A stretch of DNA of 64,000 nt from an uncultured Candidatus Saccharibacteria bacterium. Its GTDB lineage: Bacteria; Patescibacteriota; Saccharimonadia; Saccharimonadales; Saccharimonadaceae. Shown here in pieces: positions 3,190 through 56,160 of this stretch. Below the pieces are notes generated by a model. That model searched no databases, was not told the origin of the DNA, and was given only the letters and a program-made list of their open reading frames with translations. The DNA is taken from positions 1 through 64,000 of the forward strand of contig CANOTH010000001.1 of assembly GCA_947570505.1 (NCBI GenBank). The letters are read 5' to 3'. Both the position numbers and the translations under genes were made by a program. Within the stretch, counting starts at the first letter, position 1, and every line of letters begins with the position of its first letter.

Positions 3190-4506
3190 ATGAAGGTATA
3201 TATTTCTGGAATATCTGGTACTGGGATGGGGCCGTTGGCTTTGATGGCTCAGGATGCGGGAATGACGGTCTTTGGGTCGGATCTAGCTGGCGGAGCAGTC
3301 ACAAATGAGTTGGTAAATCATGGAATTAAATTATGCTTAGGAGATCAAGATGGTGAGTTTTTAAAGGCTCGAGCGAAAAATGAAGGAGTGGACTGGTTCG
3401 TTCATACTTCGGCTTTGCCAGCTAATCATCCAGAGTTATTATTAGCGAAAAAGCTGAAGCTCAAGATTTCCAAACGCGATGAATTCTTAAATTATTTACT
3501 CAAGAGACTCAAATTAAAGCTAGTAGCGGTGGCAGGAACACATGGTAAGACTACGACTACAGCGATGATTGTTTGGGCGATGCAGCAGCTCGGTGTGCCA
3601 ATTTCGTATCTAATTGGCACTACGTTGCCTTTCGCGTCGGCTGGGCATTATGACCCCGAGTCTAAATACTTTGTCTATGAAGCTGATGAATATGATCGTA
3701 ATTTTTTAGCCTTTCGGCCGTGGTTAGCCGTAATCCCGATTGTTTCTTATGACCATCCAGATATCTACCCGACTGTGCAGGACTATCAGCAAGCTTTTGA
3801 GCAGTTTGAGCAACAAAGCGAAACCGTGTTACATGGTGACGAAATTGATGCTGCTTTGACTCTGGCGGGCGAAGCTCGGCGCTATGACGCAACCTTGGCG
3901 ATTGATGCGGTGGAGCATATGCTACCAAAACCGCGAGGTATTAAGCGCATCACCAAGTCCCAGCATCGTCAGTTGGTTAAGATTATGAATGAGTTCCCGG
4001 GTGTGGGGCGGAGGTTTGAGCAGGTTTCTGAGGGCTATTATTCAGATTATGCTCACCACCCCGAAGAGGTGAAAGCAACGGTCGAAATCGCTTTAGAGGA
4101 AGCGGATCGTCGTGGGTTGAAAGGTGTGGTAGCAGTTTATGAGCCACATCAGAATGTTAGACAGGCAGAGTTGGCCGATGATTATGTGGAAGTATTCCAG
4201 GGACTAACAAAGCTGTATTGGGTACCGACATATTTGACTCGCGAAGATCCCAAGCTGGAAGTTATGCAACCGGAGGGCTTTATCGACAAACTCCAGAACA
4301 AGAAGATAGCCGAAGCATCTGTGCTGGATGATGGGCTAGCAGAAAAAATTAAGGACTGGCACAAAAAAGGTTATTTGGTTTTGCTAATGTCGGCTGGACC
4401 AGCGGATGCTTGGATTCGTAAGTTGGTCTTTGCCGGCAATCAAGAGTCAGCCGCTACTAGAATAGTACACGCGCCACGTAGTGCTGCAGAAGGTAGTGAA
4501 CGATAG
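3190..4506 (+). CDS. murC: Mur ligase, UDP-N-acetylmuramate--L-alanine ligase type
   Basis: A cytoplasmic ATP-dependent peptidoglycan precursor ligase of 438 residues. The N-terminal Rossmann-like domain begins ISGISGTGMGPLALMAQDAG and includes GSDLAGG. The ATP loop is VAGTHGKTTTTAMI near residue 115-130, and the central-domain motif YEADEYDRNF is followed by the SYDHPDIYPT segment. The C-terminal domain contains the DYAHHPEEVKAT motif typical of MurC/Mpl. MurC adds L-Ala to UDP-MurNAc; Mpl, a recycling ligase, shares these motifs and cannot be fully excluded. It is single and leaderless, and divergent from the gene at 2429-3136. Confidence 0.85.
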   Translation: MKVYISGISGTGMGPLALMAQDAGMTVFGSDLAGGAVTNELVNHGIKLCLGDQDGEFLKARAKNEGVDWFVHTSALPANHPELLLAKKLKLKISKRDEFLNYLLKRLKLKLVAVAGTHGKTTTTAMIVWAMQQLGVPISYLIGTTLPFASAGHYDPESKYFVYEADEYDRNFLAFRPWLAVIPIVSYDHPDIYPTVQDYQQAFEQFEQQSETVLHGDEIDAALTLAGEARRYDATLAIDAVEHMLPKPRGIKRITKSQHRQLVKIMNEFPGVGRRFEQVSEGYYSDYAHHPEEVKATVEIALEEADRRGLKGVVAVYEPHQNVRQAELADDYVEVFQGLTKLYWVPTYLTREDPKLEVMQPEGFIDKLQNKKIAEASVLDDGLAEKIKDWHKKGYLVLLMSAGPADAWIRKLVFAGNQESAATRIVHAPRSAAEGSER

Positions 4507-4527
4507 CCGCTGTAGCAGGTTGCGTTG

Positions 4528-4905
4528 CTAGTTATTCCCGCTGATACCTTCCACACCTGGTGTTCCTTGTAGCTCACTTGGTATCCCCAATGACTCATTA
4601 GAAAGCGGTGCAGGAGAAAACGGATCAGCAAAATCTTTGAGACGGTTATTTACTAGTCTCAACTCCTTAAGATATTCGTCTAATTCTGAAGCATTAAGTT
4701 CGCCGTTTTCAGAAAAAGTATAATTAATCGGGCCGACTGATTCTTCTGTGGCCTCTTCACTGTCTGGTAAATACCCGGGGCGCGAACGATCAAGATAAAT
4801 ATCGCCCGAGCTACGATAAATCATTAAGCTGGCTGTAGTCGTCACCCCAGCCAAAAAGATTGCTCCGCAACCTAAAATCATTAAATTTCTACCACCTTGA
4901 CTCAT
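4528..4905 (-). CDS. Hypothetical single-TM protein, 125 aa
   Basis: A short cytoplasmic N-terminus is followed by a membrane segment near residues 9-28 (MILGCGAIFLAGVTTTASLM), then an acidic, Pro/Ser-rich tail ending GVEGISGNN. It looks like a secreted or anchored envelope protein with a disordered tail. Its ATG overlaps the stop of the upstream gene by 4 nt, so it is translationally coupled as the last gene of the operon 6465-4528. No family is recognised. Confidence 0.7.
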   Translation of the reverse strand: MSQGGRNLMILGCGAIFLAGVTTTASLMIYRSSGDIYLDRSRPGYLPDSEEATEESVGPINYTFSENGELNASELDEYLKELRLVNNRLKDFADPFSPAPLSNESLGIPSELQGTPGVEGISGNN

Positions 4906-5456
4906 AGTTTTTGCCTCAAGTCTAATACACTAGCATATTGTTCTTCCGCTAGCTGTGCTAATTCTTGGGTAATTTTGCGCAAACTGGAACGTTTTTTGCG
5001 TACAACTTCAAGCTGTTCGTAGAATTCATCTGGCAATTTTTGACAATCACGGCCCATTAATACTTCCATTTCGCGCATATATTCAGTATACGTGCTACGA
5101 AACTCTGACTGTTTCAGGGAAAAATCCGATTGAATATGCGGCAAAGTAGCGCGATTATTCTTTACCAAACGTAAATTGAGGGGCACAATAAATTTATTGA
5201 CCAAGGTCTCGTAAGTAGTTCCCAGGTAGTTGCGAGTCTTTGTGTCTACTCTTTGGAGCTGACTTAGGCTCTGTTTGATTGTAGAGCAATTTTGCGAAAT
5301 TGCTCCCCGTTGCTCTTCAGATAACCCGTCGGCCGGGGTGGAAAGCAAAACCGAAATTGCAATACTACAGACAATTACCAGAATCAGCCACTTAATGACC
5401 TTTAGCGGAAAGAGCAATAATCTAACGATAAATCCCATTATGTTTCTTTCCATCAT
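4902..5456 (-). CDS. Hypothetical membrane-anchored coiled-coil protein, 184 aa
   Basis: An N-terminal membrane segment (about residues 8-38, VRLLLFPLKVIKWLILVIVC) is followed by a helical, coiled-coil-prone region with two cysteines (SQNCSTIK and RDCQKL). They are well placed to form a disulphide outside the cell, which fits the Dsb-like protein encoded just upstream. The start could be the ATG at 5456 or the second ATG 18 nt later (MGFIV). The 5' end overlaps the end of the upstream gene and the 3' end overlaps the next by ATGA. It is part of a three-gene operon. The function is unknown. Confidence 0.7.
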   Translation of the reverse strand: MMERNIMGFIVRLLLFPLKVIKWLILVIVCSIAISVLLSTPADGLSEEQRGAISQNCSTIKQSLSQLQRVDTKTRNYLGTTYETLVNKFIVPLNLRLVKNNRATLPHIQSDFSLKQSEFRSTYTEYMREMEVLMGRDCQKLPDEFYEQLEVVRKKRSSLRKITQELAQLAEEQYASVLDLRQKL

Positions 5457-6465
5457 AGATTAAAGTCGGTATACCCTTGGCATGAATTTTATCTTCTACC
5501 ATATTCTTAACTGAATTTAGGATATTAGCCACTTGCTCGCCCTCGGCTAGCTGAGAGATCTCTTCAATGGTTGTTGGCTTCGCACCAAAATCTTGCAACC
5601 AGCTTCTTAACAGCTTCTCGGCCTCTTCACTCGACGCGTTCTGCATAACAGATTGATAATTAACTCCCGATTGATCTGATTCGGTAAAGAGTCGCTCGAT
5701 AATTTTCGCAGCATATTCTTGTTTGGTCAGAGCTGCGGCATAAATATAACGTGTAATTAGCTCGGAATTATTGAACTTATAGCCACCGTCTGGTAGGCTA
5801 ATTGGATAAACTATTAAGATGGTATTAAAACGGTCAAAGAAGCCGTCAGCCTTCTGATTACGATAAGAACGCAAACATACGGTACAACCTGGATCAAATA
5901 TATCCAGCGCTAATGGTTTGCCTTCCTGAAAATCTTGAGCATAAATTACAGGATCAACTCGGTAATCCTCGGCCTGCCAGCTATGAAAACGATCAGGGAT
6001 ATTAACGAAGATCTCACCCCACTCTGAGAACCAACGACCGGTCCATTCTAGAGGGTTAGTCGGTTCGGCAGCCTCGATTCCACAGACTTCTGCTCCTAGA
6101 GCACAGCTCTCGGGTTGAGATACGTTACAAGTACCAAAAACCCAGATTGCTAGCAAAGCCTTAATTGCCTCGACCAATGACCAAATAGTAACAATAACAA
6201 TCAGAACTGCACTAACCTCAATCGCTATGCCTAGAGGCTTCACCCATTTTGGATGTTTTAAAACTATCCGGCTAAGTAAGGTGTTTTTTACATCATCCTT
6301 AAAGTTAGTCTCGCATTTCTGCAGACGCACTTTTTTACCCACACAGCCCCAAGCTTTTTTGAAAACGGTCCAATATTTTTTACCAATATCGCGCCGAAAA
6401 ATACTAAGGAAGGCTACAAAAACCCCAACTAAGGCTAGGATAATAAATGCTGCAATACAAACCAT
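5422..6465 (-). CDS. Membrane protein with DsbA-like thioredoxin domain, 347 aa
   Basis: The N-terminus MVCIAAFIILALVGVFVAFL is one membrane segment; a second lies near residues 80-110 (VSAVLIVIVTIWSLVEAI). The remaining ~200 residues are predicted extracytoplasmic and carry GCTVCLRSYRN, a CxxC redox motif, plus KGIPTLIYDG, which fits the cis-Pro loop of thioredoxin folds. The likely role is disulphide formation or reduction in secreted proteins. The ATG at 6465 is chosen because TATAAT (complement of 6472-6477) lies exactly 6 nt upstream; an in-frame start further out would lie inside the promoter. It is the first gene of an operon with two small envelope genes. A cassette sits just upstream. 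Confidence 0.7.
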   Translation of the reverse strand: MVCIAAFIILALVGVFVAFLSIFRRDIGKKYWTVFKKAWGCVGKKVRLQKCETNFKDDVKNTLLSRIVLKHPKWVKPLGIAIEVSAVLIVIVTIWSLVEAIKALLAIWVFGTCNVSQPESCALGAEVCGIEAAEPTNPLEWTGRWFSEWGEIFVNIPDRFHSWQAEDYRVDPVIYAQDFQEGKPLALDIFDPGCTVCLRSYRNQKADGFFDRFNTILIVYPISLPDGGYKFNNSELITRYIYAAALTKQEYAAKIIERLFTESDQSGVNYQSVMQNASSEEAEKLLRSWLQDFGAKPTTIEEISQLAEGEQVANILNSVKNMVEDKIHAKGIPTLIYDGKKHNGIYR

Positions 6466-40323: not shown

Positions 40324-40400
40324 TGGTACACCGGATAGGATTCGAACCTACGACCCTCTGTTCCGAAGACAGATGCTCTGATCCACTGAGCTACCGGTGC
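40324..40400 (-). tRNA. tRNA-Arg (anticodon TCG)
   Basis: Minus strand. Acceptor strand gcaccgg (from 40400) pairs with ccggtgt at the 3' end, followed by A and an encoded CCA (40326-40324). D-arm GCTCAGTGGATCAGAGC; anticodon arm TCTGT-CTTCGGA-ACAGA gives TCG; T-arm TTCGAATCC. Its first 46 nt are duplicated at 56112-56157, marking the integration site. The sequence upstream of its 5' end now belongs to the element, with a TATAAA 10 nt before G1. Confidence 0.95.
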
Positions 40401-40403
40401 ATG
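40355..40403. repeat. attL, 49-bp direct repeat in tRNA-Arg
   Basis: 49 bases identical to 56112-56160, covering nucleotides 1-46 of the tRNA plus 3 bases upstream. It includes the anticodon arm, a common crossover place for tyrosine recombinases. Confidence 0.92.
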
Positions 40404-40578: not shown

Positions 40579-41730
40579 TTAATAGCTAATACCTAGCTTT
40601 GAGCCTCTGAGTTCAGCGATCATTCTGCTGGCATCAATTTTGTTTTGCTGGCTAACGTGTTGATATACCTTCATCGTGACATTTGGATCGGAGTGTCCCA
40701 TCAAAACTTGATTGGTTTTTAGATCGACTCCACTATGGCACAAGTCAGTACAGAAGCTATGCCTTAAGGAATGTGGTGGCAAATATCTTATATTAGCTTT
40801 CTTAACTACTGCTTTATATGTGCGTTCAAAGTTTCTTGGAGAAATTGGGGCATTGCTAGTAGTGTGGAATACTAACTCACAATTACTGGTGTCTTCGTTA
40901 ATGAATTTCTGTAGCAAACAGCTCAAACTTTTTGTAATGGGGATATCACGAATACTAGACGAGGTTTTAGGAGTAGTAATCATTGGTTTATTATTAATAA
41001 TCACTACTTGTTGTCTAATATGGATAAAATTATTCTTAAAATCGCAATCAGATTTGCGTAAACCTAGTGCTTCCCCTCTCCGTAGACCGCAAGTTACAAT
41101 TAGAAGATATAAAGGCCGTAATTTTTCGTCTTTAGTTGCCTGAATAGAAGTTTTTAGTTCTTGATCACTCCAAATCTCTTTCTCTTTCCTGGTGTATTTA
41201 GGTAGAATCACCCCAAGTGCGGGGTTATCAGAAATTTTTTCTTCTTCAATAGCTAGCTTCATAACTGCAGAGATTGCGTCCCTACTAATTTGACATTGCC
41301 TAGTATTACCGAATCTATTATTAACTCGCTGAATGCTAAGTCTAATATCTCGTTTAGTGATCTGATTAATGCGTTGATTCCCTAATTCTGGTAATAATAC
41401 ACGTCGTAGAGCATACATATAAGTTTCGATGGTATGCAATTTGTAGTTAGTGGGATCATCTGGATACATTTCTTGGCATTTGATCATTAAGCTCTCCCAG
41501 TAATTAGCATAGTCCTTTAGCGTTTCACACTTTCGAAAACTAAATGCTTTATCTTTAGCTTCAACAATACACTTCATGAGCTTTTCATCAGCTTCTTTCT
41601 TAGTCTTAGCGGTAACCGTCTTAATGTGTTTTACCCCAAGCTCATCATAAACTGAATATCTACCCTCCCAACGTTTAGTTGAAGCCCTATATACTAGAGA
41701 GCCAGTTCCGCTAGAACGTCGCTTACTCAT
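40579..41730 (-). CDS. int: Tyrosine recombinase / integrase
   Basis: 383 residues. The N-terminal arm-binding type domain (GSLVYRASTKRWEGRYSVYDELG) is followed by a SAM-like core domain and the catalytic domain, with Arg in TCGLRRGEALGLRKSD, HSLRHSF (HxxR), GHSDPNVTMKVYQHV (His and Tyr nucleophile). All catalytic residues are present, so it should be active. It ends 176 nt from the left repeat. Its ATG overlaps the stop of the excisionase (TAATG). Confidence 0.95.
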   Translation of the reverse strand: MSKRRSSGTGSLVYRASTKRWEGRYSVYDELGVKHIKTVTAKTKKEADEKLMKCIVEAKDKAFSFRKCETLKDYANYWESLMIKCQEMYPDDPTNYKLHTIETYMYALRRVLLPELGNQRINQITKRDIRLSIQRVNNRFGNTRQCQISRDAISAVMKLAIEEEKISDNPALGVILPKYTRKEKEIWSDQELKTSIQATKDEKLRPLYLLIVTCGLRRGEALGLRKSDCDFKNNFIHIRQQVVIINNKPMITTPKTSSSIRDIPITKSLSCLLQKFINEDTSNCELVFHTTSNAPISPRNFERTYKAVVKKANIRYLPPHSLRHSFCTDLCHSGVDLKTNQVLMGHSDPNVTMKVYQHVSQQNKIDASRMIAELRGSKLGISY

Positions 41731-41990
41731 TATTCGCTCTCCTCTCTTTCTTTAATAAAATCATTAATAGCATTCATAGAAACAAATCGTCGTCGACCAA
41801 TATGAAAGCTACGTAGGAGCTTTTGATCAAATAACCTGTAAATCTGTTTCCGTGAAATTTGAAGAAATACTGTTGTTTGATTAATAGTTAGTGGTTGTCC
41901 CACAATATTATTCTGTCGCGTTTCTTCCAATTTGTCCGCCCCTAATTTTTCTTGAAACCGCAAATCCGCATTACTATATATACTAGACAT
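41730..41990 (-). CDS. Excisionase-type HTH protein (AlpA/MerR-like), 86 aa
   Basis: Starts at ATG 41990, overlapping the end of the RepA frame (aATGtcTAG). The N-terminal ~35 residues are followed by a winged HTH: LTINQTTVFLQISRKQIYRLFDQ, then SFHIGRRRFVSMNAINDFIKE. This is the 'helix-turn-helix domain / excisionase' pattern. It probably directs excision and may regulate rep. Tightly coupled to the integrase. Confidence 0.82.
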   Translation of the reverse strand: MSSIYSNADLRFQEKLGADKLEETRQNNIVGQPLTINQTTVFLQISRKQIYRLFDQKLLRSFHIGRRRFVSMNAINDFIKEREESE

Positions 41991-43038
41991 TTTGCGGTTT
42001 CTCGTTAGGTTGGTTAGTAGTAAAGTATAGATTTTCGTTACGATCACCTTTTCTTCTTGTAATTCTACCCGTTACTTCTAAATTTCTGAGAATTTTTCGA
42101 ATAGGCTTATCATTATTTAGCCCATTACTGCCACTAAATTCTTCTATAATACTCTTCTGATTTACTCCGGGATTTTTCCTGATAAAATCACTGACAGCTA
42201 CAAGCCTTTAATTAATAATATCTGCTTTAGTCGTAGTAAACTCAATGAAATGCCATTTGCTACTAGAGTCTGATTCCTTTAACAACTTCGCCCTGAATGG
42301 ATTAAGTTCTTCATCAAATCTATTTTTAGGTTGAGAAACAGTGACTTCGTTATTTCATTCTGACCTATTAATAGAGAGACACAGATCACAAGAAGCTGCT
42401 ATATCACTTGAGCCACGGATAGAGTCCATACTGCGTGCAAATCCAAGGTTATTACCTTTGCGGGTATGACAAATAATCAGACTTGTAATGCCATGATGTT
42501 TTAAGAATGAGAAGGATTCAAAGACTGCACTCATTTCTTTAGTGTCGTTTTCGTTAGCATTGTGGAATCGCACCAATGAATCAAAGATAATTAATTTAAT
42601 ATCTTTATCCCAGCATTCCGTCTCAAGCTTAGTTACAAAATCTTTATCTAAATAAGATCCGTTACAGCAATGGTAGTATACCTCAGATTCTGGATTAACG
42701 TTCAATTTAGCAAGATGATCATAAAGTTGACGCTCCCCAGATTCTGCATCCATAATGAGTACGTTAGTTGGTTTAGTATTAAATTGTCCTAGAAACTTTT
42801 CGCTAGCAGTAATACTTTTTGTCATTTCTAAAGCAAACCATGTCTTAAGACTGGCTGGTGCTCCAGATAATAATACTACGGCATCTTCCGGGATTAGCCC
42901 ATCTACTAGCCATTCAATGGGCGGAAAGTTTTGTGCCATAAGGTGTGAAAGTGGTAATAGTTGTATATCTTGTTGTACACCCGTGTCCGCAGGAGTGTTT
43001 AAGTTTTCCTTGTTATATGTTTGATTGTTTTGTTCCAT
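41983..43038 (-). pseudogene. RepA-like AAA ATPase with two in-frame stops
   Basis: One continuous frame of about 351 codons interrupted by TGA at 42355-42357 and TAA at 42208-42210. Before the first stop: a RecA-like ATPase (AAA_25/RepA) with Walker A LLSGAPASLKTWFALEM, Walker B KLIIFDSLVRFHN and LIICHTRKGNN. Between and after the stops the frame still reads sensibly (VTVSQPKNRFDEELNPF, then a winged-helix end VSDFIRKNPGVNQKSIIEEF ... ILRNLEVTGRITRRKGD). It is a replication initiator or helicase of the element, probably inactivated. A 227-residue ATPase fragment could still be made. SD AAAGGA precedes the start. Confidence 0.8.
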
Positions 43039-43161: not shown

Positions 43162-44271
43162 TTAATTATGCAAAATGTCATCCTTTATGTCGTCATACTG
43201 TCGAGATTTCTCATCAGATATAATATGAAAAAGCTTGTTTTGACTATCACGATCGTCTAAGCCTTCATCCATATACCCATATTTATGCCCTACATCTTGA
43301 ATAGACATACCACTTTTATAATCGTTGTATATTCTTCCACTGAGTGTTGAAATACTACTAGAAAAGTTTTGGCTACTTTTTTCGTGGCTCAAGAACGGTT
43401 TTAATGCTTTCCATGAATCTTTGTACTCATTACCACTAATACCGCATCTAAACTTAACTACTATTCCCTCTTCATCTATATCCACAATATCAATACCGCC
43501 ATTAGCTGAAATCGTATTAACAATATACTCCAAATCTGGTATTTCATCGGGTATGACAATCATGGCTATTATTAGTTTTAGCCACTCATCTCTTAGTTGA
43601 TGAATGCTTGAGATTCTTGAGGCATGCAAACTTAAATTCCCTATTGCAAATGCAGTACGTTTTTCATATTCTACTGTATTTTGACATTGGTAGTTAAGTT
43701 CAATTAGAAATGCTTCAATAACGTCGTCATAGGTTTTACAGACTATATCCGGTATGTCGCTGTTGCCTATACCAATCTGCATACGTGCGTCCCGAATATC
43801 ACCTACAAAGGATTCATCTCTTAGTAGGCTCTCTAAAGTTCTTACACAGGTTTCTATATAATTCGGTTTTGATGAGTTGCTTTTAACTGTTCCGTATGTA
43901 ATCCCATTCTTCGTTTTATCTATAACCTTGTTTTGTTTACCAATTCTCAGTCTTTGTTGTAATAGAGCAATAATCTTTCTTTTAGATAGCAGTCTTGCTT
44001 GGTCCATTTGTTGACTGCATGCTTGGTCTTGATGGGATTGTGCGACCTCTTCCAAGGTCAATGTATTCCTAATCTGATCCAAATTATATGCAATATATGC
44101 TCCTGGTAGTTCATCATCAATAGCTTGTTCATCTGTGATAATGCCAGAAATTGTTACATCTTTTATACTACCATGCTGGGTATAATGTTGCTTAATAACA
44201 TCGTTTTCTTTTTCTAGGATGGTTTTTATAGTAGATACTATTTTTTCTCTCGGGGTTATTCTTTTTGGCAT
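43162..44271 (-). CDS. Hypothetical protein of the element, 369 aa
   Basis: The start at 44271 is chosen because TATAAT (complement of 44278-44283) lies exactly 6 nt upstream; the frame stays open further (to 44391) without signals. The N-terminus MPKRITPREKIVSTIK is basic and helical, with a glutamine-rich helical stretch near 100-130 (SQQMDQARLLSKRKIIALLQQ). The C-terminus has an HTH-like segment (IYNDYKSGMSIQDVGHKYGYMDEG). It could be a regulator of the element. No family recognised. Confidence 0.6.
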   Translation of the reverse strand: MPKRITPREKIVSTIKTILEKENDVIKQHYTQHGSIKDVTISGIITDEQAIDDELPGAYIAYNLDQIRNTLTLEEVAQSHQDQACSQQMDQARLLSKRKIIALLQQRLRIGKQNKVIDKTKNGITYGTVKSNSSKPNYIETCVRTLESLLRDESFVGDIRDARMQIGIGNSDIPDIVCKTYDDVIEAFLIELNYQCQNTVEYEKRTAFAIGNLSLHASRISSIHQLRDEWLKLIIAMIVIPDEIPDLEYIVNTISANGGIDIVDIDEEGIVVKFRCGISGNEYKDSWKALKPFLSHEKSSQNFSSSISTLSGRIYNDYKSGMSIQDVGHKYGYMDEGLDDRDSQNKLFHIISDEKSRQYDDIKDDILHN

Positions 44272-44411
44272 GCCAATATTATATCCTATACATAGCCAAA
44301 AAACTATCAGTATCGGATGCGTTGCTTGCAGATAGGCGTAGATTCTATCATATCTTCTTATCTGGTTTTTTGGCTGTTTTGTAATAAACATCCTCTGGGC
44401 AATACCCGGTC

Positions 44412-45158: not shown

Positions 45159-47590
45159 CTAGATTATGAGCCCATTCCAGTTGCTTGGGTCGTAATTGAC
45201 TTCTGGCAGCTCTACTTCTTTTCCATGGAGTTGTGCGCATGCCATTTCTTGCGTAATAGCATCTCCTTGCAGTTCGAAGTGTCCATCTGCAGCCATATTA
45301 ACAATTCCTCCCCATAGCCCAGTCATATCTGTGATGTCAAAACCCCACTTTGGGTCTCTGTAGAGTTTAGCGATTTCATTGTAATCACGGAAGAAGGCCT
45401 GAAGGCCATCAGCCTTTTCGTCGACCGAGCCACCCAGTGTAGTGCCAGGCTTAGCAGTGTCACCTGACTTCGTGTCAAATATTCCCAGTGTGCCATCTGT
45501 GAACCTGACGATATAGTCGGGGTAGAAGATCGATTCTTCTATACCTTTATCATCGTTCTTGTAGTATGGAACCCCGAAATACTTCGGTTCGCTCGTTCCA
45601 TTCCTATACCACCACACGACATTATCAGATGAGTCTAGTAGTGCCTCGAACTTCTCCTCTGTCTTCCATCTGTTTTCGGTAGGACGATAGTATGGCTGCA
45701 GAGCGTGTTTCCTCATTGGATAGGCCTCATATTTTTCACCGAATTCTTGCTCATCTGGTATCTTAAAATCCGTATAGGTAAGTTCCGTTTCCTTATCCAT
45801 TGTTTTGGCGAATTCTTCCTTCGCATCGTCAACGACTGAGTTTAGGATCTCCTGATTGGCTACAGAGCAAGCCACGATTCGCTGCACTTCTGATTCATTA
45901 TCGATACCATTATCGGAGAACCATTTGTAAATTGCATCCTTAAGCACTCGACTGGAGTCGTGTGGAGCGTATGGTGAGGATGCAGATTTAAGGAACAGAT
46001 TAAATATTCGTTCAATATAAGGTTTGTCAGCAGTTAATTTGACTTGTCGGCTTTGCTCGAACAATTCCTGGTCTATCGTATCTAAATGGCCAAAACTCAC
46101 ATCAGCAAGCACTGGTATCGTCAACTCGTTAGGTGCTATCTCTAGCAGGGCATCAAGTTTTTGGAGTCGGACGTCCTTGCTATCTTCCTTACTAATTTGG
46201 AATTTCTCCTTGAGTTTTGGGAAGAACTTCTTACGAAAGTTTCGGTTGAGACGATGACGTTGCCCGACTACACGTTTGCGGTAGATGTTTGGCATACAGA
46301 AGTCATCCCTGAACTCTGGGGTTTTATGGTTAAACCTAGTCTTGAAGAAGGTTTGCGTGTCAGTGTCCTCTTGCAATGCAATCTGGTTGATATTTGTGTA
46401 GACGTAAGCCGTATTGAGTGCTGAATCGTCATAATGCTTGAGTTCTGGCATACGCAGGATGCGGCCTACGGTCTGGATTTCGAAGGTGACGGATTTTATG
46501 TCTCGGAGCATCACTAGGATAGAGGCTCTTGGACAATCCCAGCCCGTGGCGATGGCTTGTTTGAAGATAAGGACTTCGATGGGCGAATCATTTTTAACTA
46601 CTGACGTTTTCACATCTTCAGGGTAGTGGTCACCAGACACCCAAATTGCTAATTTTCCGTTGTCGTAGTTTATGCCGTTCTCGTCCATGAACTTTTCGAC
46701 TGTCTCACGAGTAGTTTGGTCGATTTCACTCATTTTTTCACTCGAATCGGTTGGTAACTGAACTAACACCAAGGGGCTGATGTTTGTTCCTTGGTGGCGA
46801 TATTTTTCCGCAAGGGTCTCTCGTTGTCTGAGTGCGGCGGCTAGCACAGCTGTATCGGCTGAGTTCTTGTCTACTGCTCCAGCAATATCATTGTTAATGA
46901 CGGTGTTGTTTTTGATTAGGCCACTTTCGATGACATCACGAATCGGAACTTTGACATATCTACCAGTATTATTTTCGTAGTAACCTTGTTCAAATTTTGT
47001 GCTCGGAGTGGCCGACACCTCAATAACTAGATCAGGTTTAATAACCTCTTGGACCAATCTTTGAGAATTAGGCCCAAGATAAGTTTTGTGTGCCTCATCC
47101 ACAATGAGCACGATTTTACGGCCAGCCTCACGGGTTTTTCTAACACCTCTTGAAGATTGCGACCATCTTCTCCGATACGAACAAAAACGTTGGTAAAAAT
47201 CTCGACTTGATTCCCCTCGTCATCAGTCTCCTTGCCTCGTCTGAACATCTTCTCCCAGTTGCAGAACAGGACAGTATTTTCCTCTAGTGCTTCGGCTGAT
47301 AGATTCTCCAACTCCTGAAAATCGTATTCGCTGTCAGGAAGATAGGTATATTTGAGTTTGAGGTAACTTTGGTGCGATAAATCACCAACGCTGGCCCAGA
47401 TAAACACAAATTCATCGTTGAGGTTTTCGGCTAGTAGTTGCTCAAGCATCGCTGCTGTCATTACAGTTTTTCCTGAGCCTGTTGGAGCGTGTAAAATCAT
47501 TGCAGCATTAGGTTTCGCTGCCATTATGAGTTCTTTGAATCCCTGGACTAGTCTTTCGACAGCCTCGCTTTGGTATTGGACTAGGTTCAT
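45159..47590 (-). pseudogene. res: Type III restriction enzyme Res subunit, frameshifted
   Basis: Start 47590 (ATG overlapping the mod stop). The helicase begins LVQYQSEAVERLVQGF with Walker A HAPTGSGKTVMTAAML; after the frameshift it continues IVDEAHKTYLGP (DEAH box), SATPSTKFEQGYY, GWDCPRASILVMLRD and QTVGRILRMPE (motif VI). The C-terminal nuclease has YPDYIVRFTDGTLGIFDTKSG, a PD-D-x-K site. The frames split at an A5 run (near 47139) that would need A6 to read EKTREAGRKIVLIVDEAH. With one base added it is about 810 residues. It would cleave DNA with Mod; as given, restriction should be off. Confidence 0.85.
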
Positions 47591-49287
47591 CTCTTACCTC
47601 CTTTGTTAAAGATGCGTTTATAGATTTCCAAAACTCCTTCGGGGATAGGCTGGCTTTCGTAGGTGTGCCTGAGATCGTCTGATAGTTCATCTAGTCGTCC
47701 ATAGTTAGTGTATGAGAATACATAGAGGTGAACTGGTGTATCCGTCTCCAGTTCCTCGATTCGCGCGATGTAGTCGGCTAATTCAAAGCGGTCAAATATC
47801 ACAGCGGTTAGGCCACGAGAGTTCTTGTAAACCTTGAACTTGTCTTCGTCGATTACCTTGTCAAACGCACCTTCACGGATCCGAATCATATCCTCGCAAG
47901 CTGGGGAGAGTTTACGGCGAAGTTTATCGAGCGTTTCGTCCTTCTCAACAAAATCAGTCTTAAAATAGCGAACATTGGCTGGGATACCTTCAGTATCGCT
48001 ATAGCCCTCAACTACGGCCTTGATGCGTGGATATGTAACTTCTTCGGCAATCTTATTTTCGTTATTAGTGCAAAGGATAAATTGTCTATGTCCACCATCT
48101 TCTTTATTGAGTTCCAATACAGCCTGACCAGTGGTGCCTGAGCCAGCGAAGAAATCTAGGATTATTGAGTCCTTTATGCTAGCGATTTGTTGGATCCACT
48201 TCATCATAGCAACCGACTTTGGACTTTTGAACTTGTTTTGTCCTATTACTGAGCGTAATTCAACCGTGCCAGTCGTAAAATTCTGCACATTTCTTGGTGG
48301 ATTAAATCCCTTCTGAATAAATTCAGCAACATACCTACCTGCATTATTTTTCCTAATGTTAACCTCTTGTTGCCGCTGCCTGAAAGTCTCGATCCCCCAT
48401 CTCCACCTCCAAACAACTCCGTTACGAAATCCTGCTCGAACAGGAATATACCCTTGCGAAATTAGCGACATATCGTCTTGATAGATTTGCTCTACGTCAT
48501 TGGTATCAACTTTCGTCTGATCGTAATCGAATACAGGGATTATGTCGTTATTCTTCTCGTTATAATAAATTGTATACCCCATACTTAACCTAGTAGATAG
48601 TCCAGTCGGTGCATCGTTTAGCGACCTTGCGACCTGCTTAACTTCATCGATACGATTAATCTTGGCTTTAGTAATGTCTTTGGCATAAACTAACAACGAT
48701 TCCTTGTTATTCTGGAATAAAACCCCGTCATTAGACTCATTTGCTGTTCCAACGACGGATATATCTGTAATAAAGTTTCCAGCAAAAATCTCATCGCACA
48801 ATAATTTCAAGTAGTGCTGCTCGTGATTGTCAATGGATATAAAAATAACCCCACTATCGGACAGAAGACTCTTCGCAAGTTCAAGCCTTTTTGACATAAA
48901 TGAGAGCCATTTACTATGTCTGTAACAGTCTTCTTTGTCGACAAATCTGTCGTTATAGATAAAACCACCATCACGGGCTTTTTCACCAGTATTATAAGGC
49001 GGATCAATATAAATTACATCAATCTTCCCTGCGTGAGTGTAATTTAAGACCGACAAAGCGTGGTAATTATCTCCCTCGATAATGAGGTTTGTGGGCTCTA
49101 CGATACCAGCATCACTAATGGCTTTATCCGTTTCCTCCTTCACTACTGGTAGTTTCTGTCTGCACTCCGTAGCAACTTTTTCGGGCTTATCCTCCCAGAC
49201 TAGGCCGAATTTCTTCTGTTTCTTAAGGGAGCCAATGATGCCTATTAGCTCCTCTTTCGTGTATTCATTGAGAGTTTTATTATTCAT
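47587..49287 (-). CDS. mod: Type III DNA methyltransferase Mod subunit
   Basis: 566 residues from ATG 49287 (SD AGAGG 6 nt upstream; an in-frame TTG lies 6 nt earlier). Beta-class N6-adenine methyltransferase: catalytic motif IYIDPPYNTGEKARDGGFIY comes before the AdoMet motif ILDFFAGSGTTGQAVLELN. The target recognition region lies between them (VVWRWRWGIETFRQRQQEV). Intact, so the element may still methylate DNA while Res is broken. The leader upstream can form a pseudoknot. Confidence 0.92.
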   Translation of the reverse strand: MNNKTLNEYTKEELIGIIGSLKKQKKFGLVWEDKPEKVATECRQKLPVVKEETDKAISDAGIVEPTNLIIEGDNYHALSVLNYTHAGKIDVIYIDPPYNTGEKARDGGFIYNDRFVDKEDCYRHSKWLSFMSKRLELAKSLLSDSGVIFISIDNHEQHYLKLLCDEIFAGNFITDISVVGTANESNDGVLFQNNKESLLVYAKDITKAKINRIDEVKQVARSLNDAPTGLSTRLSMGYTIYYNEKNNDIIPVFDYDQTKVDTNDVEQIYQDDMSLISQGYIPVRAGFRNGVVWRWRWGIETFRQRQQEVNIRKNNAGRYVAEFIQKGFNPPRNVQNFTTGTVELRSVIGQNKFKSPKSVAMMKWIQQIASIKDSIILDFFAGSGTTGQAVLELNKEDGGHRQFILCTNNENKIAEEVTYPRIKAVVEGYSDTEGIPANVRYFKTDFVEKDETLDKLRRKLSPACEDMIRIREGAFDKVIDEDKFKVYKNSRGLTAVIFDRFELADYIARIEELETDTPVHLYVFSYTNYGRLDELSDDLRHTYESQPIPEGVLEIYKRIFNKGGKR

Positions 49288-49338
49288 TAGCAACCTCTTA
49301 GTTAAAGTCGCTAAATTTGGGCTCTCGGCACAAAAGAA

Positions 49339-49452
49339 GCGGCTATTTACTTCCTGATTGCTAAATCATAATCCTAATTCAAAAGGATTGCTGGTCGTAA
49401 ATAACCGCATTCTACTCCCTTTGAATAGGATTATTATGGATTATGATTTAGC
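49339..49452 (-). promoter_or_regulatory. Pseudoknot-like leader of mod-res
   Basis: Two interleaved inverted repeats: 49339-49350 with 49397-49408 (12 bp, one G-T), and 49360-49374 with 49438-49452 (15 bp perfect), extended by 49377-49386 with 49418-49426. The order A-B-A'-B' is that of an H-type pseudoknot. TACAAT on the minus strand (complement of 49459-49464) would start the transcript at about 49452, the first base of the long stem. The leader to mod is about 160 nt. Confidence 0.6.
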
Positions 49453-49525
49453 ATTTTTATTGTATCATATAATTTCGGTTATGTTTCTAGATTACCTACT
49501 GTCGCCTCCTGACTACCGTATTAAT

Positions 49526-49554
49526 TTGACGATTCTTATGGAATAACATAAAAT
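49526..49554 (+). promoter_or_regulatory. Promoter of the unknown operon
   Basis: TTGACG (49526-49531), 17-nt spacer, TAAAAT (49549-49554), reading toward the plus-strand genes 49607-52609. It is divergent from mod. Confidence 0.65.
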
Positions 49555-49606
49555 TGGTTTTAACGTGGGCCAGAGAAAACGGGACACAATGGAGAGAAGG
49601 AGGCGC

Positions 49607-49755
49607 ATGAATAAAGAAACGGGATCAAATTCTATCAGGTAAAAAATGACAGCATTGGTCTCCCCATTACAACGCGACGCAAACAGTGGCTAAAAGATCA
49701 TACACGTATTGATGGCCCGATGTCAGATAAGTGGTGGGGAGAGGAAAATAAGTAA
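49607..49755 (+). pseudogene. Small gene, about 49 aa, with a one-base frameshift
   Basis: ATG 49607 follows the strong SD GAAGGAGG. The frame reads MNKETG then shifts at a GGG run; the other frame continues IKFYQVKNDSIGLPITTRRK and ends KWWGEENK before TAA at 49753. One extra G would fuse them. First gene of the unknown operon. No family recognised. Confidence 0.45.
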
Positions 49756-49765
49756 TCATAGGGAT

Positions 49766-49885
49766 ATGGGGCGGTTAGATGGGTCAGGTGTATCAGATTT
49801 TATTAAAATGGTTAGTAAAATTTTCGCCAGCAAGAACCCTGATAAGGCGATTCAGGATAGAACGCTGATAATAAATGAGTTTTAG
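49766..49885 (+). CDS. Possible small protein, 39 aa
   Basis: ATG 49766 to TAG 49885: MGRLDGSGVSDFIKMVSKIF, then ASKNPDKAIQDRT and an end IINEF. Weak SD (ATAGGGAT). It fills the gap between the broken first gene and the next gene of the operon. It could also be non-coding. Confidence 0.35.
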   Translation: MGRLDGSGVSDFIKMVSKIFASKNPDKAIQDRTLIINEF

Positions 49886-49908
49886 ACCTGTTAATGATAG
49901 GAGATATT

Positions 49909-50148
49909 ATGAAAAACAGTAAACAAGTAGCAGTTAAGCTACCAGAATGGTTAAAAGAAGAAAACGATAAGGTTTTTTCTATCGTAGCTTCTTTAATGTT
50001 CGGTTGGGCTTTTTATGGAGAAGAAGCGGGCAAAAGTTTAAGGCAAGAGATGTCAGAAACTTATGATGATACGTCTGAAGAAGATTTAGACCGAGCTTAT
50101 AGCTTACTAGTTGAACATGGGATAGTTAAGGTTGATGAACGAAAATAA
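49909..50148 (+). CDS. Hypothetical small protein, 79 aa
   Basis: Start at ATG 49909 with SD ATAGGAGATATT; an earlier ATG at 49894 lacks an SD. Acidic and helical: KLPEWLKEENDKVFSIVASLMFGWAFYG, then EEDLDRAYSLLVEHGIVKV, a winged-helix-like C-terminal segment. It precedes the zinc-ribbon gene by 11 nt in an operon. Unknown function; it may be a regulator or small partner of the large protein. Confidence 0.6.
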   Translation: MKNSKQVAVKLPEWLKEENDKVFSIVASLMFGWAFYGEEAGKSLRQEMSETYDDTSEEDLDRAYSLLVEHGIVKVDERK

Positions 50149-50159
50149 GAAAGGAGCAA

Positions 50160-50597
50160 TTGAAGACCACTATGGGAGTAATAATAACAACTAAATGCAA
50201 AAATTGTAGTTTGGAAAAAACATTTTGCTATGGTGGTGGTTTCGACAGCGTTAATAGTAATGATAAGGAAACTATCAACGAATATCGTGAGAGCTTTTCT
50301 GGAGAAGCTAGAAAAGCGGTGCTTGCAGCTATATCAGCAGGGACGGCAAAAATAAGCATATTTCATGATATATATAAATGTTATAAGTGTGGTAATTATC
50401 AGCATAAAACATGCAGACTCGTTAAAATCACGAATACTGAAGAAGAATACAGGTCAGATGGGCTAGCTTGCGATCGATGTGGAACCACAATGAAAAATCT
50501 AGGCGATTTACCTATGATAGAGCTACAGACAGAACTCAATAAGTGCCCACTGTGTGGTCATAATAATGAAGTATATGAGAGCGGTTTATGGGATTAG
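50160..50597 (+). CDS. Hypothetical zinc-ribbon protein, 145 aa
   Basis: Three cysteine pairs: TKCKNCSLEK near the start, YKCYKCGNYQHKTC in the middle and LACDRCGTTM ... NKCPLCGHNNE at the end. These look like two or three zinc ribbons. The start is either TTG 50160 (close to SD AAAGGAG) or ATG 50172. Its last codons overlap the start of the large gene that follows. No family recognised; zinc ribbons would suit RNA, DNA or protein binding. Confidence 0.6.
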   Translation: MKTTMGVIITTKCKNCSLEKTFCYGGGFDSVNSNDKETINEYRESFSGEARKAVLAAISAGTAKISIFHDIYKCYKCGNYQHKTCRLVKITNTEEEYRSDGLACDRCGTTMKNLGDLPMIELQTELNKCPLCGHNNEVYESGLWD

Positions 50598-52609
50598 GGG
50601 GAAATATTTTTGGCGACGCAAAGCAAACCTTAGATAAATTAAAAAGCGAGGGTACGATTAATTTTGCCAGGTTTCAAAAAATACTCAAAGATTCAGACAT
50701 TGATTACTGCCGACGAGCTTACGAGCTACTTTATGTCATGGAATATATTGATCCAGTAGATAACCAGACTAGCTATTACCTTGATGCAAAAATAAATTCT
50801 AATGAATATCGCGATGATTCAGCATGGCTTATATACTACCTGCCAGATAAATTTTATGACTATATGACTGTAGAGCAAGGGTTCGAAGTTTTATTAAAGA
50901 ACTCCGCTAATGATGATTCTGAGTTGTTACTAAATCGAGCAATGAAGGTGATATATCGTCTTGCTGAAGAGAAAACAAAATATCTTGCGGAGTGCGTAAA
51001 AAATCCATGTGATAATGCTTACTATAAATCGTACGTTGAGGAGCTTTTGCATGATTTATGCTATGGAAATAGAAGTATTACTCGTGACGATGTAAGTGCT
51101 AGCGATTGGCAAGATGCGATGATCTATCTGCGATACAAGAATCTACGTATTTTAGATTTAGGCGACGATTTGTTTGAACGAGGAGGTAAAGCATTACAAA
51201 ATTATCAAATTCTTTATATACTTGAAACATATGGGGAAGAAAAGGTTAAATTACTTGCAGATGAGTATTTCCGTAAATACTATTATTGCGAGGATATAAG
51301 CATTCTCGGTTTTATCGGCGAAGAATTAGGGGAGGATTTTAGTCAAAAGTTTGTAAAACAACAAGAACCACGATCTATCAATGAATCCGATTTGGAAAAA
51401 ACGAGTTTCCTGAACTTCTATAAATATCCAGAATGGATTAGATTTTCTCCGGATGCTAATATGAAAATTATCTCGAAAATTCTACATGATGAATTGGCGG
51501 GCGAAGAAGTAAATTACTATCTTGGTACAAATGAAACACTTGAAGATTGTACTAAAATATATCCAGCAATTAAACATATTCTGCAAACTACTAATAGCTA
51601 CAAGCTATTTCATGTGGCTGGAAGTGCCCTGAATACAATTTGGGGCAGTTTACTAGAAGATAATGAAAAATTAGAAGAGTGGTTGCAGGGGGAAATTTAT
51701 AATATTTTTTGGCCAAGAATAAGAAGTATCAGAAGGCTTCAAAATAGTAAAGAACTTAAATTTATCAACTCTGATGAAGAAGATATATTTAATAATGAAG
51801 TAGATTGGGTATTAGGCCTTAATGACAAGACTTTGCAAAGATGCAACCCTAGTCTATGGAAATCTCTAAAGCAAGAGGCTGACCGTGGTATTGATGGTAT
51901 GCTTGAAAAAATCACTCAGGATATACCTAGTAGAGCTTTCGCCGTGAAGTGTTCCAAAATGAGTGCAAAGGAGATTATGAATTTGGCAAATATCCGTTAT
52001 GGCAATGGAGTCCTCAAGCATGGCCTATATATTTCTTTATGTAATTACGTTGGAGTAACTCATGAAGGAGTAGAGGAGATTTTTAACCTGATACTTTCAA
52101 GCGGTGATGAGGATAATGATAGTATATGCAAGATTAAGATCGATGATGTTCCGAAAGTCATGTACCAATTAGTGAGCAGTAACGGCTATTGTGCTTCTAA
52201 ACAATTTCGTACTTGTATTATGGAATCAATGATAAAGAATTTTGACGAATTAGTAAAATATATTTGCAAGGCGGATTTTGCGGCTATTTTTATGGCGGCA
52301 TGTGAAGGGGTTAAGCAACAAGATGAAATTCCACTCTTAGAGAACTTAGCTGATGCCATTAAGAAACAAACCAGCTATAGAGTTGAACAAGAAGACGATA
52401 AAGGTAGATTAGATACAGCATGGTTTGTGATTGCCTATACAGCCAAACATAAAATTCTAGAACAGGAACGGCGACAAATCGCTTCTATTAAAAATTTTGA
52501 TTTGGCATTAGCAAAAGTAAGACAAAAAGTTGTTGAATATGAACAGTGGGTTGAGGAATTACAAAAAAAATTAATAGCATACAGTCAAAAGGCAACCCTA
52601 CAAGATTGA
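50588..52609 (+). CDS. Large hypothetical helical protein, 673 aa
   Basis: Soluble, largely helical, acidic, without membrane segments, nucleotide-binding loops or known nuclease motifs that could be seen. The N-terminus (GDAKQTLDKLKSEGTINFARFQKILK) could be a small winged-helix domain. The body contains tandem helical stretches, and the C-terminus is a coiled coil (LALAKVRQKVVEYEQWVEELQKKL). The start overlaps the zinc-ribbon gene by 10 nt. As the largest gene of a cargo operon next to restriction-modification genes it is a candidate for an undescribed defence or satellite function (inference). Confidence 0.65.
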   Translation: MGLGGNIFGDAKQTLDKLKSEGTINFARFQKILKDSDIDYCRRAYELLYVMEYIDPVDNQTSYYLDAKINSNEYRDDSAWLIYYLPDKFYDYMTVEQGFEVLLKNSANDDSELLLNRAMKVIYRLAEEKTKYLAECVKNPCDNAYYKSYVEELLHDLCYGNRSITRDDVSASDWQDAMIYLRYKNLRILDLGDDLFERGGKALQNYQILYILETYGEEKVKLLADEYFRKYYYCEDISILGFIGEELGEDFSQKFVKQQEPRSINESDLEKTSFLNFYKYPEWIRFSPDANMKIISKILHDELAGEEVNYYLGTNETLEDCTKIYPAIKHILQTTNSYKLFHVAGSALNTIWGSLLEDNEKLEEWLQGEIYNIFWPRIRSIRRLQNSKELKFINSDEEDIFNNEVDWVLGLNDKTLQRCNPSLWKSLKQEADRGIDGMLEKITQDIPSRAFAVKCSKMSAKEIMNLANIRYGNGVLKHGLYISLCNYVGVTHEGVEEIFNLILSSGDEDNDSICKIKIDDVPKVMYQLVSSNGYCASKQFRTCIMESMIKNFDELVKYICKADFAAIFMAACEGVKQQDEIPLLENLADAIKKQTSYRVEQEDDKGRLDTAWFVIAYTAKHKILEQERRQIASIKNFDLALAKVRQKVVEYEQWVEELQKKLIAYSQKATLQD

Positions 52610-52650: not shown

Positions 52651-53103
52651 TCACTCTAGATTTGCGGATGTTGGTTTCTGTTCTCTCATTTCTTGCTTGA
52701 ACTGTTGCCACTGCTTAAATTCAGCATACTTTTCTGGATCAGTATGGGGGCTTGGTACAACCTGGAAAACTATCTCTGGTTGATTGAAGAAGCCATCAGA
52801 ATCATCAATGTTGAGTTTTTCGCTTCTCTCAAATATTAGTCTAGCGGCTCCAGTATCTCCGTTAATCGCTTTAATAATCATAGCTAGAGTGATTGCCTCC
52901 ATATAGGAATAGTCACTATTACTGGATAGATAGTTTTTCGTATCCTCATTAATAGGAAGCATTAGATCTACTTCCTTTTCTAAGAGTTCATGAGTAATGG
53001 TCTTAATGTTTTTACTACCAGCTTTCCTGCCGTTTTGTCGTCTAGGATCATCTTGGCCAGTGAAGGGCTGAAGGTTGCTGATGGAAGTAGGGTTATAGGG
53101 CAT
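52651..53103 (-). CDS. Terminase-small-subunit-like (DUF5681-type) protein, 150 aa
   Basis: The basic N-terminal segment QNGRKAGSKNIKTITHELLEK resembles the G-x-P-x-G-S-x-N motif at the start of DUF5681/terminase-associated phage proteins. The middle helix EAITLAMIIKAINGDTGAARLIFERSEK also fits. It ends in a Gln-rich helix. SD GGAGAG lies 7 nt before the ATG. It is the only packaging-related gene in the element, as expected for a satellite that hijacks a helper phage; the assignment rests on short motifs. Confidence 0.5.
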   Translation of the reverse strand: MPYNPTSISNLQPFTGQDDPRRQNGRKAGSKNIKTITHELLEKEVDLMLPINEDTKNYLSSNSDYSYMEAITLAMIIKAINGDTGAARLIFERSEKLNIDDSDGFFNQPEIVFQVVPSPHTDPEKYAEFKQWQQFKQEMREQKPTSANLE

Positions 53104-53250: not shown

Positions 53251-54123
53251 TTAAAATAAAGCTAGAAATACTGCTCGCATCATGGAGACGCAGACAGCAT
53301 TACCACACATACGGTAGCGTTGACTATCAGAGATGAGCTCGTTATCTTTACCAAACTTAGTCCAGTTATCTGGGAACATCTGGCAATGCTCACATTCTAC
53401 GGGTGTTAGTCTTCTGATTTTATTACCTTCAATTACTCCAGGAGCACCGTCACTACCTATGCCATGATAGCTAGCAATGATAGTATTAACGGAGTTATGT
53501 TTTGTGGCTCTAGTTCGATTCTTAGAATAAGCTACTATACATTCAGAAGCGAGAACAGTTTTGTACTTCTCTCCTCGGATAGATAATACTTCTGATCGAC
53601 ACTTGTCTCGAAGAAATCCGACAAGTATAACTCTCTCACGATGTTGCGGGGTTCTGAAGTATTGGGCATCAAGTACTCCCCACTGGACGTCATAACCCAA
53701 GTCATCAAGGATCTGTAAGATTTGTTTAAAGTCTTCTCCTTTATTGGAGCTGAGTAAACCTTTGATATTCTCGAAGACAAAGTATTTTGGCTGTTTGGCT
53801 TTAAGGATTCTGGCGAGTTCATAAAATAATCCTGTTCTTTCTCCAGCTAAGCCTGCTCGTTTACCAATTATGCTGGCGTCTTGACATGGAAATCCCCCAA
53901 CTAGTAAATCAAAATCAGGTAGCTCGTTAGTATTAATTTGTTTAATATCTCCATAATTATTAGTATTGGGGAAATGCCGTTCGTAAACCGAGCTAGCGAA
54001 CTTGTTAATCTCGGAATAGCCTATACATTTAGTGGCTATGCCTAGTTCCCTTGCCGCTTCTTCGATCCCTAGTTCAAAACCACCAATACCAGAAAAAGTA
54101 GAGAAGTAAGTTAATTTCTACAT
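53251..54123 (-). pseudogene. C5 cytosine DNA methyltransferase with stop at codon 2
   Basis: An open frame from 54117 to 53251 encodes 288 residues with the full motif set: FSGIGGFELGIEEA (I), GGFPCQDASIIGKRAGL (IV, catalytic PCQ), FENIKGLLSS (VI), QHRERVILVGF (VIII), RRLTPVECEHCQMFPDNW (IX) and RYRMCGNAVCVSMM (X). The only ATG at the natural start (54121-54123) is followed at once by TAG, then AAATTAACT..., and there is no other ATG, GTG or TTG before a TTG at 53700. The expected N-terminus would be M-KLTYFSTF. It is probably inactivated by a small insertion or mutation. Confidence 0.8.
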
Positions 54124-56111: not shown

Positions 56112-56160
56112 CCTCTGTTCCGAAGACAGATGCTCTGATCCACTGAGCTACCGGTGCATG
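56112..56160. repeat. attR, 49-bp repeat (5' half of tRNA-Arg)
   Basis: Identical to 40355-40403. The minus strand carries TATAAT (complement of 56166-56171) 8 nt before the tRNA-half start, which looks like the original tRNA promoter left behind on this side. Confidence 0.92.

Follow-up and report, generated by a model that had tools for sequence, protein, structure and literature searches.

A lineage-restricted helical protein resembling M1 aminopeptidases in the cargo of a tRNA-Arg-integrated Saccharibacteria island

Restriction-modification (R-M) islands integrated at tRNA genes have in common a tyrosine integrase, an excisionase-like gene, tRNA-derived direct repeats, and R-M cargo, and M1 aminopeptidases (i.e., ERAP1/2, APN, and PepN) carry an N-terminal beta domain and a zinc site with the HExxH motif ahead of their C-terminal part. 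Here we compare with both a three-gene operon in a stretch of 64,000 nt (the window) from a Candidatus Saccharibacteria MAG (1.23 Mb, 72 contigs), which an initial annotation, made from the sequence alone, had proposed to be a candidate new defence or satellite system. At a probability of roughly 60%, we read the operon as mosaic cargo of a tRNA-integrating island and its 673-aa product as an M1-like, non-catalytic helical scaffold. A literature search at the level of titles and abstracts returned no description of the 673-aa family or of these islands.

Table 1. Positions of the operon, the island that carries it, and the canonical M1 enzyme of the same genome.
Feature	Position	Strand	Evidence or remark
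Canonical M1 aminopeptidase of same genome	18227-20749		HELSH
tRNA-Arg(tcg)	40324-40400	-	ARAGORN and Rfam
49-bp direct repeat, copy 1	40355-40403		100% identical to copy 2; overlaps 5' half of tRNA-Arg
Tyrosine integrase	40579-41730	-	Phage_integrase PF00589, E 6e-29; adjoins tRNA
Excisionase-like HTH protein	41730-42047	-	HTH_17, E 3e-8
AAA_25 ATPase	42355-43038	-	PF13481, E 2e-26
Type III restriction subunit (res)	45159-47590	-	Broken frame (650 + 187 aa), read as two ORFs that overlap in different frames; weak ResIII match
Type III DNA methyltransferase (mod)	47587-49293	-	Open frame, 568 aa; PADLOC MTase_III, E 9e-86
Imperfect long hairpin, mod/operon gap	49359-49453		16-bp perfect arms; fold z -3.1
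39-aa ORF, probably no gene	49766-49885	+	No match to 67-aa partner profile
79-aa acidic protein	49909-50148	+	ATG start, GGAG 5 nt upstream
145-aa protein, zinc-ribbon type	TTG 50160 or ATG 50172 to 50597	+	Four CxxC pairs
673-aa helical protein	50588-52609	+	Saccharibacteria-restricted family; M1-aminopeptidase-like body, no HExxH
DUF5681-like protein	52651-53103	-	PF18932, E 3e-5, just under cut-off
C5-cytosine methyltransferase, C-terminal fragment	53251-53700	-	PF00145; best stretch profile 242-321 of 324
49-bp direct repeat, copy 2	56112-56160		Far end of island

An integrative island inserted at tRNA-Arg carries the operon as cargo. Two tRNA-derived direct repeats, spaced 15,757 bp apart, enclose a 15.8-kb segment with its own integrase (Table 1), and G+C content is 38% within this segment versus 44% elsewhere in the window. 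In a related genome (G014), TetR/MMPL, the flanking genes of the window's island, adjoin an intact tRNA-Arg(tcg) with no integrase match, on a contig that stops before the other flank. It is because of the repeats, the integrase, the HTH protein, the AAA_25 ATPase, the low G+C content, and the G014 comparison that we read the operon as island cargo, a status that the initial annotation had already given it. R-M genes adjoin the operon. A further island protein of 409 aa (43162-44391) had no Pfam match.

The flanks described initially, i.e., mod-res on one side and a methyltransferase on the other, are both present; what did not survive is their integrity and, on the latter side, their adjacency. 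The res gene is frameshifted, the methyltransferase gene encodes only the C-terminal part of a C5 enzyme, and a DUF5681-like gene, found also in the related island L069 (45% identity), separates this fragment from the operon. For the broken res frame beside an open mod, gene decay and assembly error are both possible. An ORF in another frame overlaps the C5-methyltransferase fragment (region 53251-53822), and the hairpin in the gap between mod and the operon occurs as one copy in the genome.

The three genes for proteins of 79, 145, and 673 aa are real, all lying on the + strand, overlapping or closely spaced. The 145-aa and 673-aa genes overlap by 10 nt, so that, judged from the reading frames, translation of the former is probably coupled to that of the latter. 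The promoter assigned at 49526-49554 fared less well: it scores 10/12, and the region holds 14 promoter-like sites against 14.0 expected from shuffles. Likewise, the small frameshifted gene and the 39-aa peptide placed upstream exist as a broken frame and an ORF, respectively, and both look like decayed sequence, because neither has relatives in the relatives' loci compared and a 40-aa fragment gave weak plasmid matches alone (Streptomyces, tail-fibre-type, E 0.02). We also considered the 39-aa ORF as a shortened form of the 67-68-aa partner gene of L044, L045, and L069, and rejected this on finding no profile match. Consistent with the observation that familiar motifs are missing, none of the three proteins matched Pfam, PADLOC, or NCBIfam above cut-off, and their matches to PHROGs were weak (best E 0.03).

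A small acidic partner, a zinc-binding protein, and a large helical protein had been put forward as a plausible multi-part system, with conserved co-occurrence as the test named beforehand. Among the loci compared, relatives of the small and 673-aa genes are adjacent in the window alone, and none of the 79-aa relatives in seven genomes has a relative of either other gene next to it. The several zinc ribbons reported for the 145-aa protein are borne out by CxxC pairs at residues 13/16, 74/77, 104/107, and 129/132; a search of 150 related genomes at E 0.001 found no relative of this protein, searches of plasmids, phages, and viral contigs likewise found none, and 295 class genomes gave weak partial matches alone. 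One conserved three-part defence machine is thus not supported, and the 145-aa product would be an orphan zinc-ribbon protein coupled translationally to the 673-aa gene.

With a pI of 4.7, the 79-aa protein is acidic, as first described; its ORF is also listed as 84 aa from position 49894. A profile search recovered its family in 8 of 174 genus genomes, including the window's (i.e., 7 others), and no relative was found in plasmids or viral contigs. Six of the seven relatives adjoin R-M-type genes, and three lie in tRNA-bounded islands. More specifically, (i) in L044 and L069 the small gene follows a DUF262-type restriction enzyme gene (PADLOC REase_II, E 1e-135 and 1e-122, respectively), with a 64-68-aa acidic gene in between; (ii) in L045, L046, L066, and L067 its neighbours are a C5-methyltransferase gene (motifs FAGVGG and PCQDYS) and a conserved gene of 264-271 aa, presumably the restriction partner of that methyltransferase, with an HSDR_N-type protein additionally encoded in L045 and an internal stop in the small gene of L066 and L067; and (iii) in L068 none of the adjoining genes was recognised as R-M. 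L044, L045, and L069 have tRNA-derived repeats at their borders and carry relatives of the window's integrase. These three are related islands bounded by tRNA-Ser or tRNA-Leu, with integrase and R-M cargo, and L045 looks like two tandem islands at tRNA-Leu(caa). A single-sequence model of the 79-aa protein is predicted to be helical (pLDDT 80), with weak winged-helix similarity (Z < 6). The protein is thus a recurrent companion of R-M-type genes in this lineage. From position and charge, we infer that it probably tunes R-M activity or shields against it, as a protein of the regulator or anti-restriction type.

Single-sequence search found the 673-aa family in 18 of 150 related genomes, including the window's; a profile search recovered it in 27 of 295 class genomes (a few of these members being partial), all within one Saccharibacteria family and two genera. 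Single-sequence searches of phages, plasmids, viral contigs, and genome contigs gave no match, and the family is apparently undescribed and lineage-specific. According to their titles, the source MAGs of members come from sheep ileum, jejunum, and duodenum, yak reticulum, water-buffalo rumen, and others. Members range from ~320 to 800 aa and have in common the part corresponding to residues ~140-413 of the window protein, with terminal domains that differ between members. One member (L075) carries a C-terminal FtsK_gamma domain (E 2.5e-9), and the N-termini of the L080 member and of the window protein resemble FtsK-gamma by eye alone. An FtsK-gamma assignment for the N-terminus of the window protein was rejected, Pfam being negative.

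The genomic company of the family bears on whether the window's island could instead be a phage satellite or remnant, its operon serving the island through regulation or by interfering with a helper phage. The integrase, the excisionase-like gene, and the AAA_25 ATPase, which is of replication type and has relatives in L045 and in the region of L055 that also contains a 673-aa family member, would suit such an element, as would the identification of no structural gene. In L080, moreover, the gene for a family member (4277-6163) comes immediately after an HD-type gene, with a phage portal gene ~2 kb upstream; the portal gene shares 35% identity with Streptococcus phage portals, and L080 is possibly a Saccharibacteria phage contig. 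We nevertheless regard a satellite as improbable: the island genes that could be assigned, several having no assignment, include no terminase, capsid, or packaging gene, the L080 member ranks among the family's most divergent, and the related islands carry R-M cargo, not phage genes.

A defence role of the 673-aa protein is possible. Four independent members directly adjoin defence genes at distances of 8-43 nt, the neighbours being UzuA (L057/L074), GmrSD/HEC-06 (L071), GmrSD-type HEC-05 (L075), and a type II REase (L059). Together with the overlap of the 145-aa and 673-aa genes and the type III R-M genes adjoining the cargo, this would fit a new anti-phage module of the two proteins, in which the scaffold would be the sensor and the effector would be either the zinc protein or a nuclease from a neighbouring gene. 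Such a module appears unlikely, since PADLOC gave no clear excess of defence matches among the direct neighbours of the family relative to control genes from those loci (a coarse control, in which tallies are matches per family model), family members also occupy ordinary chromosomal places (e.g., beside ruvC), most 640-aa members lying among such genes, the zinc protein has no relative in the genomes searched, and PADLOC matched none of the three proteins.

AF2 predicts an all-helical 673-aa protein, in line with the original description, with a core pLDDT of about 80; the model is confident only over residues ~150-430, the N-terminal 140 residues and much of the chain after 440 being of low confidence. 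All of the best 50 VIA matches to this model were M1 aminopeptidases, mostly with 410-435 residues aligned and at Z 12.4-14.8, values that helical models can reach by chance. The alignment pairs residues ~142-633 with the M1 part that is C-terminal to the zinc site, as placed by the position that we take this site to have in ERAP2. Foldseek gave a borderline result (best E 1e-3), a viral structure library contained no meaningful match, and a PDB sequence search returned nothing significant.

Sequence profiles point in the same direction at the level of the family. An hhalign comparison of 34 family members with 21 Saccharibacteria M1 enzymes gave an E value of 6.8e-7 and a score of 65.6 over ~362 columns, in the same chain order as the structural match, whereas reversed and 10 shuffled controls scored 13-17, and 25 other natural families from the same loci scored 15-28 against M1. 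This signal comes mainly from the 640-aa branch, the window-like subgroup alone gave no significant match to M1 (E 0.12), an M1 profile searched against single family sequences found no significant member, and the window protein has no Pfam match to the ERAP1_C-type region. A generic HEAT/ARM-type solenoid of independent origin, whose M1 likeness would reflect convergence or helical bias, is an alternative that we consider doubtful. Importins, CRM1, and designed armadillo proteins in the Foldseek list agree with it, as does the absence of a significant match in the search with an M1 profile, but the family-level score is far above those of the natural families and above the reversed and shuffled controls, and the shared chain order and the uniformly M1 composition of the best VIA matches argue against it.

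The window protein lacks HExxH and with it the zinc motif that marks M1 enzymes. By comparison, HELxH is present in 21 of 21 canonical M1 enzymes, and across the 673-aa family we found one isolated HEIIH (L070) and otherwise no HExxH. A separate canonical M1 enzyme is encoded by the same genome (Table 1), as in 55 of the 60 Saccharibacteria genomes searched. On the basis of the fold and profile similarity, the missing HExxH, and this separate canonical enzyme, the 673-aa body is called M1-like and non-catalytic, a designation drawn from sequence and predicted structure, and its descent from M1 is probable.

The scaffold body would then correspond to the tail of the M1 catalytic domain together with a HEAT/ARM-like domain. 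Because the family has differing N- or C-terminal modules, one of which is the FtsK-gamma winged helix, the most likely role of the 673-aa protein would be that of an adaptor or regulator whose helical surface holds a partner, either a protein or a nucleic acid. The protein may thereby assist the R-M or defence cargo of the island, or the element itself. A wider proposal, that inactivated M1-derived scaffolds of Saccharibacteria, with exchangeable winged-helix or other termini, have been recruited as sensor or adaptor subunits of systems that serve defence or are encoded by mobile elements, the zinc-ribbon and 673-aa pair being one such system, strikes us as quite improbable. That very small Saccharibacteria genomes keep an apparently non-catalytic peptidase-like family suggests a lineage-specific job for it, and R-M islands with a recurrent small acidic protein give a concrete starting point for asking how epibionts with tiny genomes take up restriction systems and keep them in check.

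Set against described systems, the locus differs from the defence systems modelled in PADLOC in that its three proteins match 0 models and belong to no conserved gene set, the point of contact being the UzuA, GmrSD-type, or type II restriction genes beside some 673-aa relatives. With tRNA-integrated R-M islands, the window's island shares the integrase, the excisionase-like gene, the tRNA-derived repeats, and the R-M cargo, and it is set apart by lineage-specific cargo and by a repeat that falls in the 5' half of the tRNA gene. Compared with M1 aminopeptidases, the 673-aa protein is without HExxH, N-terminal beta domain, and zinc site, and its body resembles the C-terminal part of these enzymes in both fold and profile, in the same order along the chain.
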